From Nitrospira sp. CG24A (GTDB taxonomy: Bacteria > Nitrospirota > Nitrospiria > Nitrospirales > Nitrospiraceae): a stretch of 53,615 nucleotides of DNA. Within the stretch, counting starts at the first letter, position 1. Every line of letters begins with the position of its first letter. The position numbers were made by a program, and so were the translations under genes. The DNA is taken from contig NEWT02000029.1 in NCBI GenBank assembly GCA_002869925.2, forward strand, positions 21,153-74,767, written 5' to 3'. Below, in pieces: positions 35,858 through 42,552 of this stretch. A model generated the notes under the pieces. It saw only the letters and a list, made by a program, of their open reading frames with translations, was not told the origin of the DNA and did no database searches.

Positions 35858-36712
35858 ATGGACATCAACGCACATACTCAGTTCTGCGGTGTCATCGGCA
35901 ATCCCGTCGAGCATTCACTGTCGCCCGCCATTCACAATGCTGCCTTTCAGAAGCTTGGGTTGAACTTCGTCTATCTGGCCTTCCGTGTGGAGGCGATCGG
36001 TGATGCAATTAAGGGTCTTCGCGCTCTTGGGAATTTTTGCGGCGCCAGTGTAACCATTCCCCATAAAGTGGCAGCCGTTCCATTTCTTGATTCTGTCGAG
36101 CCGACTGCACGTCATATCGGCGCGATCAACACGATTGTGGCTGCGGGCGGGACCCTCACAGGGTATAACACCGATGCGATCGGCGCCTTGCGCGCGCTTC
36201 GCGAGAGTGGTGTGGCGTTGAAAGGGAATCAAGTCGTCATGCTGGGGTCTGGAGGCGCTGCTCGGGCGATTGCGTTCGCACTTGGGACAGAGGCTGGGGT
36301 TGGTCGCTTGACCATACTCGGAATCGATAGCCAAGAACGTGCAGCATTGACCCGAGATCTCCAATCGAAGACAGGGATGGCCGTGCAGGAATCGCATCTC
36401 GATGAAGGGACGTTACGGCAGATCCTTCCAGATGCTCATGTGCTGATCCATTGCACACCGATGGGCATGTCGCCCAAAGTCAACGAGACTGCTGTGCCGG
36501 CGGCGTTGCTTCATGCAGGACTGACGGTGATGGACATCGTCTACAACCCTCGGGACACCCAGTTGTTAAAAGATGCGAAAGCGAAAGGCTGTCGCACAAT
36601 TCCAGGGCTCGAAATGTTTCTTCATCAAGCTGCGGCGCAGTTTGAGCTTTGGACTAATTGCGCTGCTCCAGCTGATGTTATGCGGGCCGTCCTGGAGTCG
36701 CGCTTTTCATGA
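35858..36712 (+). CDS. aroE: Shikimate dehydrogenase
   Basis: This 284-residue enzyme has the shikimate site GNPVEHSLSPAIHN, the Lys in TIPHKVAAVPFLD, NTDAIGALRAL and the NADP site MLGSGGAARAIAFAL, ending in PGLEMFLHQAAAQFELWT. It reduces 3-dehydroshikimate to shikimate with NADPH. Together with aroK next to it and the cluster at 13842 it covers much of the aromatic pathway. The stop overlaps the aroK ATG (ATGA). Confidence 0.95.
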   Translation: MDINAHTQFCGVIGNPVEHSLSPAIHNAAFQKLGLNFVYLAFRVEAIGDAIKGLRALGNFCGASVTIPHKVAAVPFLDSVEPTARHIGAINTIVAAGGTLTGYNTDAIGALRALRESGVALKGNQVVMLGSGGAARAIAFALGTEAGVGRLTILGIDSQERAALTRDLQSKTGMAVQESHLDEGTLRQILPDAHVLIHCTPMGMSPKVNETAVPAALLHAGLTVMDIVYNPRDTQLLKDAKAKGCRTIPGLEMFLHQAAAQFELWTNCAAPADVMRAVLESRFS

Positions 36713-37209
36713 ATATCGTGTTGATCGGCTATCGGGGTGCCGGTAAGAGCGCAGTGGGTAGACGACTTGCGGCACGATTGGGCCGAAAGCTTGTCTCGAC
36801 CGATGCCGAGATCGTCAAGCGCGCTCACCATTCGATTCCGGAGATCGTTGCCCAAAAGGGATGGGAGTATTTTCGCGATTTGGAGTCTGACATCTGTAGG
36901 GAGCTCGCCGACCATGACCAGCTTGTGATCGATACCGGCGGTGGGGCCATACTTCGAACACACAATGTCGAGGCGTTGAAGAAGAATGGCACCGTGTTTT
37001 GGTTGGAGGCTTCAGTCGAGACGATCACGAAACGAATCGGCCGGGATACTCAGCGTCCCTCGCTGACAGGGACCAAGTCGTTCGTCGATGAAATCCAAGA
37101 CGTGTTGCAGGAGCGAACGCCAAAATATCAAGCGGCCGCCGATCATGTGATCGCGACCGACGATCGATCAATCGATCAGCTGGTTGAGGCGGTAGTGACT
37201 CTGCTATGA
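36709..37209 (+). CDS. aroK: Shikimate kinase
   Basis: This 166-residue kinase has the P-loop GYRGAGKSAVGRRLA, the shikimate-binding STDAEIVKRA, DLESDICRELAD, and DTGGGAILRTHN. It phosphorylates shikimate before the EPSP synthase step. Coupled to aroE by a 4-bp overlap. Length is usual for the family. The tRNA-Arg gene begins 95 bp downstream. Confidence 0.95.
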   Translation: MNIVLIGYRGAGKSAVGRRLAARLGRKLVSTDAEIVKRAHHSIPEIVAQKGWEYFRDLESDICRELADHDQLVIDTGGGAILRTHNVEALKKNGTVFWLEASVETITKRIGRDTQRPSLTGTKSFVDEIQDVLQERTPKYQAAADHVIATDDRSIDQLVEAVVTLL

Positions 37210-37304: not shown

Positions 37305-37381
37305 GCGCCCGTAGCTCAATTGGATAGAGCATCGGACTTCGGATCCGAGGGTTGGGGGTTCAAGTCCCTCCGGGCGCACCA
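37305..37381 (+). tRNA. tRNA-Arg (anticodon TCG)
   Basis: A full cloverleaf folds: acceptor GCGCCCG with CGGGCGC, D arm GCTC/GAGC, anticodon stem TCGGA/TCCGA with loop CTTCGGA and anticodon TCG at 37339-37341, T arm with TTCAAGT loop, and encoded CCA (37379-37381). It should read CGA and, with wobble, other CGN codons. A decayed copy of its 3' half lies at 41278-41328, so this gene is the probable attachment site of an integrated element. Confidence 0.97.
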
Positions 37382-37478
37382 TCCATCAAAAACCTACGAG
37401 AGCATCGCCCCCCCAGCGTGAATGTAGGGACGTGTAGAAGTGTGGCTGGTATTCGATCACAGCCAGGGAAATCTAAGA

Positions 37479-37685
37479 ATGATCTGGACAACAAAGAAGC
37501 CGACGAAGCCGGGGTGGTATTGGTATCGCGGTGAGTGTAATGGGCAGACCGTGAAAGTCATACATTTCATCGATGACGATGGAGATGGGCCCTACCTCGC
37601 AACGTCAGACGATGTGACACTTCATGATTTAACCGGCGAATGGGCTGGACCGGTTGAGCCGCCATTGCAGACCCAGAGTCGTTAG
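37479..37685 (+). CDS. Small acidic protein of phage-like type
   Basis: This 68-residue protein reads MIWTTKKPTKPGWYWYRGEC, then VIHFIDDDGDGPYLATS and LTGEWAGPVEPP. The form W-x4-P-x2-PGWYWYR is seen in small hypothetical proteins of phages and islands. No signal or membrane segment. ATG 37479 is used; the frame upstream to 37440 has no ribosome site. It is the first gene after the tRNA. Confidence 0.6.
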   Translation: MIWTTKKPTKPGWYWYRGECNGQTVKVIHFIDDDGDGPYLATSDDVTLHDLTGEWAGPVEPPLQTQSR

Positions 37686-38150
37686 AGGGTAGTTTGCATA
37701 TCTCGCGAACTGCTGGAATCGTCGTCCAAGAGAGCAGGGACCAATGGGACGTTCGCCCTCATGTCTGGCTCACATCCCACGTTTTCAGGATCCAGATATT
37801 TGGCAGGAGATGATTCGCGGGTTAATCGATTGCTGAACGTGTAGAAGTCGTGACTTGATCCGACCTTTCCTGTATCCGCTCGGTCAGACTACGAACTTGT
37901 TGATCCTTTCTCTTGAATCAGATTTGATTCACCTCATGAATTTCTTTTGATACACCCGTCTACGATCAGGAGTTGTGTCTCAGCCGTGCGCAAGGCATAC
38001 CACACTGATAGTAAAGAGATTAAGGTCATCGCGATACCCCCGACTTATGCTGGCATCTGGCTTGCTTTCTTTCGATGCCATCGATTGCAATCGCAGAGTT
38101 CTAAGACTAAGTTGACGGTAGGCGTAAAAGCGCACTGGTACGACAGAACG
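37686..38150. other. 465-bp region without a supported gene
   Basis: It separates the small acidic protein gene from the lipoprotein gene. The lipoprotein frame is open from 37947, but the part before 38151 lacks a signal peptide or ribosome site. I see no repeats or RNA structure worth naming. Confidence 0.4.
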
Positions 38151-38723
38151 ATGGCTCGTGAATCACGAGCGCAAGTGCAATTTTGCATTCTCGTCCTTGC
38201 GCTTGCATTGGTAGTAGCCACGTATGGTTGTGGACGAGATGAGCCGAAACCTGGAGGGCAAGCTATGCCAAGCAAAGAGAGCAATCAACCGGCCACGACA
38301 CGCGCTGCGCGCCTCATCTTTGAGTATGAGGGTGAGCGGGTGCGTTTGGTCAGCCAGCAGGTAGTAGAGATGGTTGTCACCGGTTTCGATATCGCTCGGG
38401 CGCATCATGCCGGCGTCTACGTAGATGCCCGTGACGCTGAAGATAGAACCTTGTCGCGGGTGCCGGCACGCGACGCCTTCGCCACCAGCACGGAGGTGTT
38501 CCCAGAACGGGCAGGTGAAGCGATTGTGCGTGTCGATACGGCGAGGCCGAAGGGCGCTTTCACGGTGGTTATTCCCGTGCCACAAGAAACCAATAAAGTG
38601 GCAGTAGTGCGTGTGGTGCCGGCACAACTGGATGCGAAGTTGCCGGCCGGTGGTACCACTAGCCGTGTAGCTGGCGCCGCCGAAGCCACCGATCTTGCGA
38701 CCTTCCCGCTCACACTCAACTAG
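38151..38723 (+). CDS. Lipoprotein of unknown function
   Basis: This 190-residue protein has a lipoprotein signal: charged start, hydrophobic core (FCILVLALALVVATYG) and lipobox ATYGC with Cys at residue 27. The mature part has beta-rich stretches (ARLIFEYEGERVRLVSQQVVE, GVYVDARDAEDRTLSRV) that look like an immunoglobulin-type or similar beta-sandwich. I do not recognise a family. It precedes the M64 peptidase gene by 19 bp and is presumably expressed with it, perhaps as a surface partner. Confidence 0.65.
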   Translation: MARESRAQVQFCILVLALALVVATYGCGRDEPKPGGQAMPSKESNQPATTRAARLIFEYEGERVRLVSQQVVEMVVTGFDIARAHHAGVYVDARDAEDRTLSRVPARDAFATSTEVFPERAGEAIVRVDTARPKGAFTVVIPVPQETNKVAVVRVVPAQLDAKLPAGGTTSRVAGAAEATDLATFPLTLN

Positions 38724-38742
38724 TGAGAATAGGAGCCGAACT

Positions 38743-40650
38743 ATGTCAACTGCAGATGGTGCCGTCATCGGTACGACCCAGATCGCTGGCTCAGCTCCGC
38801 GCAACCGCGCGTTCAACGTTGTCCTTCTCGCCGAGGGCTTTACTGCAGCCCAACAGAATGATTTTAACAATGCCTGCATGACCTTCGTTAACACTTTCCG
38901 AACTACGCCTCCATTCGACGAGTTGAGTGCTGCGATCAATGTATTTCGCGTGAACGTCCGCTCGACCGATACAGGGGCCGACGATCCAGTCGCAGCAGGC
39001 GGAACCGGAGCGACGGTGCGCACGTACTTCGACGCCTCGTTCGGCGGCAACAACATTCGCCGCTTGCTCATTTGCAATACGACGACGGCATTGCAGGTAG
39101 CGGCGGCGCAGGTACCCGAGTTCATAGTCGTTCTGCTAGTTGTCAACTCGACCATCTACGGCGGCAGTGGCGGATCGGTCGGCACGTATTCGCTCGCCGG
39201 CGGCGCGACCGAGATTGCAATTCACGAAATGGGCCATACGGCATTTGGGCTTGCCGACGAATATCCATACTATGCCGGTGGTAACGAAACCGGCCACGAT
39301 CACCACCCTGCTGGCGAGCCCGGCGAGCCGAACGTCACCACCAACTCGAATCGCAACACGCTCAAATGGCGTTGGGCAGTGGCCAGCACGACGGCAATCC
39401 CGACGATGGCTAATCCCAACTGCTCACAGGTAGATGGTCGGCCGAATCCCGTGCCAACTGGTACGGTTGGTCTGTTCGAGGGAGCGCACTATTATCACTG
39501 TGGCGCGTATCGGCCGGAATATGACTGTAAGATGCGGGCGCTCAGTGTGCCGTTCTGTCGCATCTGCCGACAGGTGATCTGGAACCGTATCGGGCCATTG
39601 GCAACGCTTTCGGCCCGCGCACGCACGCCAATCTCTGTCATCGCTCGCTTCCCCGAGCATCTGGATGTGTTCGCAGTGGCCAGCGACGGCCGCACGGTAA
39701 GCAATTGGTGGGATCAGTCAAGCGGTTGGGCCGGATGGTTCAACTTGATGGGTGGCATCGCCTCTCCAGGTGGTCCCGGCTCGCCCGTTACCGCAGTCCA
39801 CCGTTACGCAGGACACATCGACCTGTTCACCGTTGGCACAGATAACAGGGTGTGGAGCGCGTGGTGGGACGCGGCGACCGGCTGGCATTCCTGGTTTCAA
39901 ATCGGCGACCTGGTGTGTCGCCAGGGATCGGTCATTAATGTCGTCTCTCGCTACAGCGACCACATTGATTTGTTCACGACGGCCTCGGACGGACGAGTCA
40001 TGTCCACGTGGTGGGATGTGCGCAGCGGCTGGGCCCCGTGGTTCCACGTTCAAGGCGGCGTTGCTGCTTCCGGCGCTCCAGTCACCGTCGTTGCGCGGTA
40101 TCCGTTCCATCTCGATCTATTTACAGTGGGGACCGATAACCGCGTGTGGAGTTGTTGGTGGGACGAACGTAGCGGCTGGCATGGCTGGTTCCAGATTGGC
40201 AACCTGCAATGTCGTCCAGATTCGACAGTCACGGTGGTCAGCCGTTTCCCCGATCAACTCGATCTTTTCACCACCGCTGCCGATGGCCGTATCATGTCTA
40301 TCTGGTGGAACTCGCGCAAGGGATGGGCCAACTGGTTCCACGTCTCTGGCGGCGTGGCCTCGCCAGGCTCTCCTGTCACTGCCATCGCTCGTTATTCGGG
40401 CCACCTCGACTTATTCGTCATCGGCACCGACAATCGAATCTATAGCACCTGGTGGCACGAGAACCAGAGCTGGGCCGGCTGGTTCAACGTCTCAGGCGGT
40501 GTTGGCATGCCTGGCGGACAAGTGGCAGCGATCTCTCGCGCAACGGAACATCTTGACTTGTTCACCGTCGGTTCGGATGGTCTTGTCTATAGCACTTGGT
40601 GGGATGGCGCCACAGGTTGGGCTGGTTGGTTCGCACTGGGCGTGACCTAA
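38743..40650 (+). CDS. M64-type metallopeptidase fused to a seven-repeat PLL-like lectin propeller
   Basis: This 635-residue protein has residues 1-290 of the M64 peptidase type (IgA peptidase): AFNVVLLAEGFTA, then the zinc motif HEMGHTAFGLADEY at 161-174 (H161, E162, H165). Residues 297-635 contain seven units of about 50 residues, each with an LDLFTVGTDNRVWSxWWD core and GW.GWF. This resembles the PLL/DUF346 beta-propeller lectins, predicting carbohydrate binding. No signal peptide is seen at ATG 38743, so export is unclear; the start could be upstream at 38695, which also lacks one. Confidence 0.8.
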   Translation: MSTADGAVIGTTQIAGSAPRNRAFNVVLLAEGFTAAQQNDFNNACMTFVNTFRTTPPFDELSAAINVFRVNVRSTDTGADDPVAAGGTGATVRTYFDASFGGNNIRRLLICNTTTALQVAAAQVPEFIVVLLVVNSTIYGGSGGSVGTYSLAGGATEIAIHEMGHTAFGLADEYPYYAGGNETGHDHHPAGEPGEPNVTTNSNRNTLKWRWAVASTTAIPTMANPNCSQVDGRPNPVPTGTVGLFEGAHYYHCGAYRPEYDCKMRALSVPFCRICRQVIWNRIGPLATLSARARTPISVIARFPEHLDVFAVASDGRTVSNWWDQSSGWAGWFNLMGGIASPGGPGSPVTAVHRYAGHIDLFTVGTDNRVWSAWWDAATGWHSWFQIGDLVCRQGSVINVVSRYSDHIDLFTTASDGRVMSTWWDVRSGWAPWFHVQGGVAASGAPVTVVARYPFHLDLFTVGTDNRVWSCWWDERSGWHGWFQIGNLQCRPDSTVTVVSRFPDQLDLFTTAADGRIMSIWWNSRKGWANWFHVSGGVASPGSPVTAIARYSGHLDLFVIGTDNRIYSTWWHENQSWAGWFNVSGGVGMPGGQVAAISRATEHLDLFTVGSDGLVYSTWWDGATGWAGWFALGVT

Positions 40651-41112
40651 ATGAATCTGTAGCGATATACTTCAGGAAAAAGAAGGAAAAATCGTACGAC
40701 CCTGCGCATTGAGGGTTGGGTGGAGTAGAGTGTTCTTGTCCTTCTGATGCATTCATGGTGTTTCTCGCCGCAATCAGAAGGGCTTCTCCTGTATAGAGTT
40801 GTGGCTGCCAGGGTCGTGCGGACAATCGGAGGCAGATGCGAGCAAGTACCGTAAACGTGCCTGTCAAACGGAGCGCCCAACACCTACGCTCGTCGGATTG
40901 GCCTCCGTCCTATTAATGAAAAGTCGTATCGTGTCCGCAACTCCATCTTCCCAATCCCGCAGCTTAAACTTGAGGCTGCAGCCTTGGAGTGTTGCTGTGG
41001 TGCGTCGTTCCCTTCGCCACCCGCTGCCTCATCTTAATAATTCTCCCCAATCGCTCCAGTAGGTTCTGCATGGAGACATGGGGTCGTTATGAGGTGGCCC
41101 CGTTTCCGCCCA

Positions 41113-41150
41113 CAGGCTGCTCAAAAGTCTGTGCGGCAAGGCCGCAGCGA
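41113..41150 (+). repeat. Partial MITE-like repeat (left half)
   Basis: AGGCTGCTCAAAAGTCTGTG followed by CGGCAAGGCCGCAGCGAA matches the left half of copies A and B (GGATGCTCAAAAAGGC... CAAGGCCGCAGC). The right end is missing. It lies within the candidate tRNA-bounded element. Confidence 0.5.
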
Positions 41151-41277
41151 ACTATCACTTTTTAATGGGTGACTGGGATGCCCAAGCGCGCGTCATCGCA
41201 ATTCCCCATTTCCCTTTCAAGGGTGGCATGGTCGATCCTCGATTGTGCGCGTCGAACGCAGAGTGATTCGTTTTTGG

Positions 41278-41328
41278 ATCGGATTTCGGATTCGAGGGTT
41301 AGGAACTCAAGTCCCTCCGGGTGCACCA
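41278..41328 (+). pseudogene. Decayed 3' fragment of tRNA-Arg (possible attR)
   Basis: Fifty-one bp beginning ATCGGATTTCGGATTC, with CTCAAGTCCCTCCGGG later, match 37331-37381 in 44 positions, including the CCA-like end. The acceptor 5' side, the D arm and half of the anticodon arm are missing, so it cannot encode a tRNA. Confidence 0.8.
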
Positions 41329-41578
41329 CTTCATCCTGTAACGCTCAAGATGAAATCATTGAAGTCGCGGCAACTTACGACTGACATTCCTGACCGTTTC
41401 GCGCGGTCTTCTCACGCCAAAACAGCATAAATTTCGCGATCTTGCGAAATACGTTTCCACCAAGAGGCAGTAAAAATGGGGTGTTTAAAATGGTGCTATG
41501 CTATAGGCTAGACCGCGGGTTTGATTCTGTGGATGGCTGAGCAAGTAACAGTACAGTCACCAAGAGGAGGGGCGCATC

Positions 41579-41719: not shown

Positions 41720-41937
41720 CTCTAGACTACTCTCCCGCTTGTCCACGCTTTTGCAGTCAGTGACCGATATGTACTGCCCCGTCTCTCCCCTCACCGTGTC
41801 CCCCTCAAGACCCAACTACAACAGACTGAGAATCCAAGTGAAATAGCTACGAGGCCGGTGACCTCTCACTTTTTCATTCTGGTGCTATATTTCATATGCA
41901 TAGGCCCAGTCTTATTCTAAAAAATGGGAGAATTACC

Positions 41938-42552
41938 ATGACCGGAAGTCCAGCGAAAGCGGGGATTGTAGTAGCAATGGGGTTTGTCTTGTTGGTGAGT
42001 CAGGGTTGTAGCATGAAATGGCTGCAGTCCGATGGAGAAACGGGAGCAGGGGCTGGACAAAACGGTGGCTCAGGTGGAGGGCTCAAAGGTTTTTCTAAGA
42101 ATCCTTCAGAAGAGCGTCTGGGGAAGGGCGGCGACATCGCCTCGCTTTCCTCTTCCGGGATGAGTGCCCGTCAGCGTGCGGAGCTCACCAAGGAGGAAAA
42201 GGCGGCCATCGAGGCTGGCCTACGGGATGTATTCTTTGGGTATGATCAGTGGGTGCTTTCAGACTCTGGAATGGAAGCGTTGAACCTCGACGCACAGTGG
42301 CTGAAGGATCACCCTGGAGCCGTGATGAAGGTTGAAGGTCACTGTGATGAGCGAGGTACGGCCGACTACAACATTGTATTGGGGGAGAAGCGAGCCAAGA
42401 CTGCGCGCGGTTATCTGATCGAGTCAGGTGTAGCCCCCAAACAGGTAGCGATTGTGTCGTACGGCAAGGCGCGCCCGTTCTGTTCGGACCCTGCTGAATC
42501 CTGTTATCAGCAGAACCGTCGCGGGCATGTGTTGTTGAGTGTGAAAAAGTAA
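41938..42552 (+). CDS. pal: Pal-type OmpA-domain lipoprotein
   Basis: This 204-residue protein has a lipoprotein signal with Cys at residue 24 (VLLVSQGCSM), a Gly/Ser-rich linker and an OmpA-like peptidoglycan-binding domain: VFFGYDQWVLSDSG, VEGHCDERGTADYNIVLGEKRAKTA, QVAIVSYGKARP, QQNRRGHVLL. It ties the outer membrane to peptidoglycan in the Tol-Pal system. No tol genes are next to it. ATG 41938 has GGGAG ahead; the frame upstream to 41896 is less likely. Confidence 0.88.
   Translation: MTGSPAKAGIVVAMGFVLLVSQGCSMKWLQSDGETGAGAGQNGGSGGGLKGFSKNPSEERLGKGGDIASLSSSGMSARQRAELTKEEKAAIEAGLRDVFFGYDQWVLSDSGMEALNLDAQWLKDHPGAVMKVEGHCDERGTADYNIVLGEKRAKTARGYLIESGVAPKQVAIVSYGKARPFCSDPAESCYQQNRRGHVLLSVKK

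Follow-up and report, generated by a model that had tools for sequence, protein, structure and literature searches.

A probable integrase-less genomic-island remnant at the 3' end of tRNA-Arg(TCG) in Nitrospira sp. CG24A, at a site used recurrently by integrating elements

In the genome of Nitrospira sp. CG24A, a block of 3.9 kb lies between an intact tRNA-Arg gene and a decayed copy of the 3' end of the same gene, and the locus raises the question of whether a mobile element that targeted the tRNA brought in this DNA, and whether it did so in a single event. The window that was analysed, a stretch of 53,615 nucleotides (contig NEWT02000029.1, positions 21,153 to 74,767), shows the gene order aroE (35858-36712), aroK, tRNA-Arg, block, tRNA fragment, pal, a PilZ gene, msrA, mtn genes and ttcA. 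The conserved neighbours of the site are aroK, encoding shikimate kinase (36709-37209), on the left and pal, of the OmpA family (41896-42552), on the right, both on the forward strand. The target, tRNA-Arg(TCG), recognised with ARAGORN and Rfam RF00005, occupies 37305-37381 of the forward strand and is the sole tRNA that ARAGORN finds in the window.

On alignment, the 3' part of this tRNA from base 27 onward (37331-37381, ending in CCA; the attL side) was found to recur on the same strand at 41278-41328 (the attR side), without gaps and with 44 of 51 positions identical. The first-pass annotation, which had reported a 51-bp tRNA 3' repeat with 44 identities 3.9 kb downstream, was correct to the base, and its description of a decay mostly by transitions holds for all seven differences; with the tRNA taken as the starting state, six of the seven are C>T or G>A. 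When the whole genome (3.36 Mb) was searched with BLAST, the distal copy was retrieved with an E-value of 6.9e-11, and the only stronger matches were tRNA-Arg(TCG) itself and tRNA-Arg(ACG). No tRNA was called by ARAGORN at the distal copy.

Genomes lacking the insert show which of the two copies stands on the original flank. For 12 such genomes of the genus, the 220 bases following the tRNA were aligned to the sequence after the distal copy (41329-41515) and to the sequence after the intact tRNA (37382-37568). The former matched G014 with a score of 122, in an alignment that begins immediately behind the CCA (200 shuffles reached 25 at best), and scored 70 in G004, 69 in G006, 56 in G045, 52 in G041 and 30-51 in the other insert-free genomes, against a best of 200 shuffles of 23-28 across the 12 genomes. 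The latter scored 14-18 in all 12, which is the shuffle level. BLAST and multiple alignment agree that the tRNA of the empty sites joins the flank found after the distal copy, and an empty site is present in at least 10 relatives, including the closed genome G087 of the sister genus, where tRNA-Arg is followed by pal. Because the flanks at empty sites match 41329-41515 and not 37382-37568, the fragment is the original tRNA 3' end on its original flank, and 37382-41328 was therefore inserted. Relative to the empty site, the comparison shows this segment to be an insertion at the 3' end of the tRNA, at the exact CCA junction. Within the flank, the stretch GGTGCTATGCTATA at 41489-41505, before pal, is kept in almost every aligned genome of the genus and resembles a promoter core.

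The same site is occupied by tyrosine-recombinase elements with 45-55-nt repeats of the tRNA 3' end in four relatives (G005, G022, G042 and G086), one of them a closed genome. In G005, a PF00589 integrase extends from the tRNA onward, its end overlapping the tRNA, genes for an HTH protein and a replication protein (REP_ORF2-G2P) follow, and 8.6 kb on 45 nt of the tRNA 3' end recur without a mismatch. An integrase of the G005 type is similarly found at the tRNA in G022, where another contig carries a 45-nt fragment followed by pal, and in G042 a P4-like integrase (Arm-DNA-bind_3 with PF00589) adjoins a 55-nt fragment and then pal. The closed genome G086, from the sister genus, shows tRNA-Arg, a PF00589 integrase, RelB, a repeat with 45/45 identity lying 7.1 kb away from the tRNA and then pal, and with the empty G087 it forms a filled and empty pair of closed genomes. 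The near relative G047 has at the site a 4.2-kb block of other genes with a 47-nt fragment, and no integrase was found in that block. As read from these gene arrangements, the aroK/tRNA-Arg(TCG)/pal site is an integration hotspot across the family and is live in relatives.

The integrase-bearing elements of G005, G022, G042 and G086 resemble the window in the tRNA used, the neighbouring genes and the kind of 3' repeat; however, they keep PF00589 integrases and some of them Rep or HTH genes, their repeats are perfect or near-perfect, and they have no cargo in common with the window. A search for common cargo between the window and the other occupied sites yielded nothing beyond a 66-bp dispersed repeat with G047. 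A short dispersed repeat at 41000-41069 of the window has an inverted copy inside the G047 block (L106, 4637-4702). Another dispersed repeat, at 41113-41258 and 20 bp from the fragment, belongs to a family abundant in the genus. A search of its own genome returned 29 matches, and of the 31 other genus members searched, 30 have many; certain copies resemble halves of a longer palindromic unit. Other tRNA genes are also associated with integrases. A G005-type integrase occurs at tRNA-Arg(ACG) in G024, and in Nitrospira sp. RBC069 (G177) a P4-like integrase accompanies tRNA-Arg(ACG), with a 57-nt piece of the tRNA following 10.5 kb further on (L174, 1039-11618), so that a second tRNA-Arg gene serves as a site there.

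The block itself contains no detectable integrase or integrase remnant, and when the integrases and the Rep and HTH proteins encoded by the elements of the relatives were used as queries, the sole match in the block was the antisense of the tRNA itself. It is classed as a remnant rather than an intact island because of this, and its excision or transfer is not expected. The first-pass annotation had considered the enclosed genes to be accessory and the integrase to be lost, which the ORF and integrase searches bear out; it had also suggested a comparison of GC content and codon use with the surroundings, and here the outcome was negative. The GC content of the block is 0.565 as against 0.557 for the rest of the window, the codon distance of the M64 gene described below (0.302) falls inside the core range of 0.224-0.417, and the only block ORF off that range is the short left ORF (0.514). 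Composition was thus rejected as a mark of foreign origin.

We read the block as what remains of a genomic island inserted at the 3' end of tRNA-Arg(TCG), with a probability of about 0.92; events of this kind are well known, and the site is newly mapped. The tyrosine-recombinase insertion proposed from the repeat at the outset is supported by the empty sites and by the PF00589 integrases with their repeats at the site in relatives, and the lack of any integrase trace and a GC content and codon use that do not look foreign count against the island reading. Under it, a tyrosine recombinase would have crossed over in the anticodon arm of the tRNA, the 3' half of the tRNA now in use would come from the attP of the element, and the half that it replaced would have been displaced to 41278-41328. 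The integrase would have been lost afterwards while transitions accumulated in the fragment, and what was left of the insert may have been reshaped by deletion, by the dispersed repeat and possibly by the M64 cassette, if this arrived at a later time. The repeat starts at tRNA base 30-33 in the type shared by G005, G086 and G022, at base 23 in G042 and at base 27 in the window; the additional matching bases of the window fragment upstream of base 30-33, and its start, taken as nearer to that of G042, suggest that the lost integrase was probably of the P4-like G042 type, judged from this one short stretch.

The Islander paper (PMC4383910) describes the signature of a tRNA with a displaced 3' fragment, and crossovers centred on the anticodon. 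The block and the Islander islands are alike in an intact tRNA, a terminal 3' fragment downstream in the same orientation, an insert length between 2 and 200 kb (here 3.9 kb), an anticodon-arm crossover and an uninterrupted empty site at the predicted junction in relatives, and the site is likewise used by integrase-bearing elements. Unlike those islands, the block has no tyrosine integrase gene inside it, so that the Islander filter would reject it, and its fragment is 14% decayed.

The decay also gives a rough indication of age. The fragment differs from the tRNA by 0.152 substitutions per site after correction (7 of 51 positions changed), compared with 0 of 45 in two integrase-bearing elements, and this fits the earlier suggestion of an old event, with the wide error that seven changes imply. 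Fourfold-site distances from the window are 0.199 to G044, 0.169 to G047 and 0.278 to G007, each covering two lineages together, which for G044 is about 0.10 per lineage. On comparing the fragment decay with these distances, the insertion probably dates back at least to the split from G044, G047 and G007, with the same wide error.

Much of the block is made up of a two-gene cassette. A segment at 37914-40661 on the forward strand is 82.6% identical, with sharp boundaries, to a segment of Nitrospira sp. RBC069 that lies at an unrelated, tRNA-free locus. Its second gene (38743-40650, forward strand) encodes an M64 family metallopeptidase (HEMGHTAFGLADEY) fused to a beta-propeller lectin of the PLL/CV39L type. 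The protein passes the gathering score of PF09471 (136.4 as against 26 bits) and contains the HExxH zinc motif as HEMGH; residues 22-280 have matches among solved M64 peptidases, residues 297-632 among PLL/PHL lectins. For the lectin part, the score lies above the cut-off of the beta-propeller lectin family NF052348 (203.3 vs 200 bits) and below that of the CV39L-family lectin NF052350 (240.5 vs 350 bits). The gene upstream, on the same strand, encodes a 190-aa protein (38151-38723) that may start at the ATG at 38151 or at 38265; its lipoprotein-like N-terminus is uncertain, since several relatives begin near the later ATG.

On detailed examination of the structural model of the 190-aa protein (mean pLDDT 78.9), it was found that VIA-align superposes it on three Bacteroides M64 structures with Z-scores of 9.0-9.2 and an rmsd of 3.3-3.6 over 112-113 residues, at chain residues 27-148, with the next unrelated family at Z 6.0. 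Foldseek alone gave a weak match (E 0.13), and among the 12 members of the 190-aa family no M64-related Pfam match was obtained at E <= 1. Searches of NCBIfam with the first two block proteins and of Pfam with the 190-aa family produced weak or irrelevant matches only, and in PHROGs two of the three block proteins had no match and the third a chance-level one (E 0.05). The Bacteroides peptidases (PDB 4df9, 3p1v and 9qdi) share the M64 catalytic domain with the window protein, and their N-terminal beta domain has the same predicted fold as the product of the upstream gene; however, they carry both domains in one chain and have no lectin, whereas in the window a gene of its own probably encodes the N-terminal domain, and the peptidase carries a PLL-type propeller at its C-terminus. 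By homology and predicted fold, the products of the cassette are thus probably a peptidase that bears a sugar-binding propeller and, encoded apart from it, an N-terminal domain.

The M64 gene is absent from all 31 other genomes of the genus, and matches to it occur in 10 of 235 genomes of the order, five of them full-length. The same gene pair is found in Arthrobacter, Cellulomonas, Variovorax and an acidobacterium, with M64 identities of 65-78%. Between the window and RBC069 the M64 proteins are 91% identical as against 77% for ttcA, and the two pair in the M64 tree (support 100/99), where the Nitrospira sequences form a weakly supported group (83/89) inside a mainly Actinomycetota clade. These sequence comparisons suggest that the gene pair was likely transferred horizontally. 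That it is a two-component peptidase-lectin system, moved as a unit among Actinomycetota, Pseudomonadota, Acidobacteriota and Nitrospirota and here delivered or captured by a tRNA-Arg(TCG) island, we put forward tentatively, as a proposal with rather less than an even chance.

Whether the whole block came in at once depends on its left end. The part at 37382-37737 is common to G044 and G007 at the same place: 320-350 bases adjoining the tRNA are shared by the three genomes, with 95% identity to G044 up to 37697 and 87% to G007. It carries an accessory ORF of 81 aa (37440-37685, forward strand), to which no family could be assigned. A single donor context for this ORF was rejected, its relatives in other species lying at varied places, such as a lepA-bioA region (G012 and G041) and near a decayed integrase (G042). 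In G047 (L183, 3690-4307) an integrase overlaps tRNA-Thr, and a relative of the 81-aa ORF lies about 2 kb off on the other side of that tRNA.

In G044 and G007 the site holds no M64 genes and no detectable fragment, G007 having a 100-N gap there. As the left ORF stands alone in these genomes and the M64 cassette of other family members occurs elsewhere without a tRNA, the whole block need not stem from one event, and the cassette may have been added later. An old element could have left the ORF and the fragment, the cassette arriving afterwards by recombination or an unrelated insertion; with its sharp bounds against the tRNA-free segment of RBC069 and its restriction to this one member of the genus, such a two-step history comes close to an even chance. 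However, the same distribution would follow if G044 and G007 had lost cassette and fragment by deletion, neither repeats at the boundaries nor a transposase point to a second insertion, and in G044 the DNA that separates the left ORF from the flank has no match to either side of the cassette. A two-step history refines the island-remnant explanation and does not exclude it. The first-pass annotation had named two patterns as speaking against tRNA insertion, namely the block's genes at this place without the fragment and the fragment without these genes; both occur, the left gene without the fragment in G044 and the fragment with other cargo in several genomes. The tRNA-insertion reading is still supported, since one hotspot repeatedly used and decayed accounts for both patterns, and the block need therefore not be a single insertion.

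An import of block, fragment and flank together, by homologous recombination from a lineage whose island was already decayed, appears unlikely. The window and G044 are about 94-95% identical left of 37697 and right of 41559, and only about 57-68% identical over 41329-41515 (L105, reverse complement of 2346-2526), as such an exchange could produce; however, the flank in G044 is just as distant from all the other genomes, so that G044 may be the one that changed, and no donor was found. Either recombination or local decay may account for this low identity. The least tenable alternative, that the distal copy is the pseudogene of a tandem tRNA-Arg duplicate with genes arriving independently in between, agrees with its resemblance to a degenerate tRNA 3' half but is highly improbable, given that the 5' half is absent, that relatives with empty sites carry one tRNA with the flank directly after it, and that the fragments in other genomes, too, have their start within or close to the anticodon arm and occur together with integrases.

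Literature searches found no paper on the aroK - tRNA-Arg(TCG) - pal hotspot, and as far as they show, site-specific elements in nitrite-oxidising bacteria are little described. A recurrent integration hotspot is newly mapped in these organisms. A worn island that has lost its integrase can be proved when filled sites are compared with empty ones, and the cargo of the present remnant suggests a split peptidase-lectin module that is spreading between phyla.
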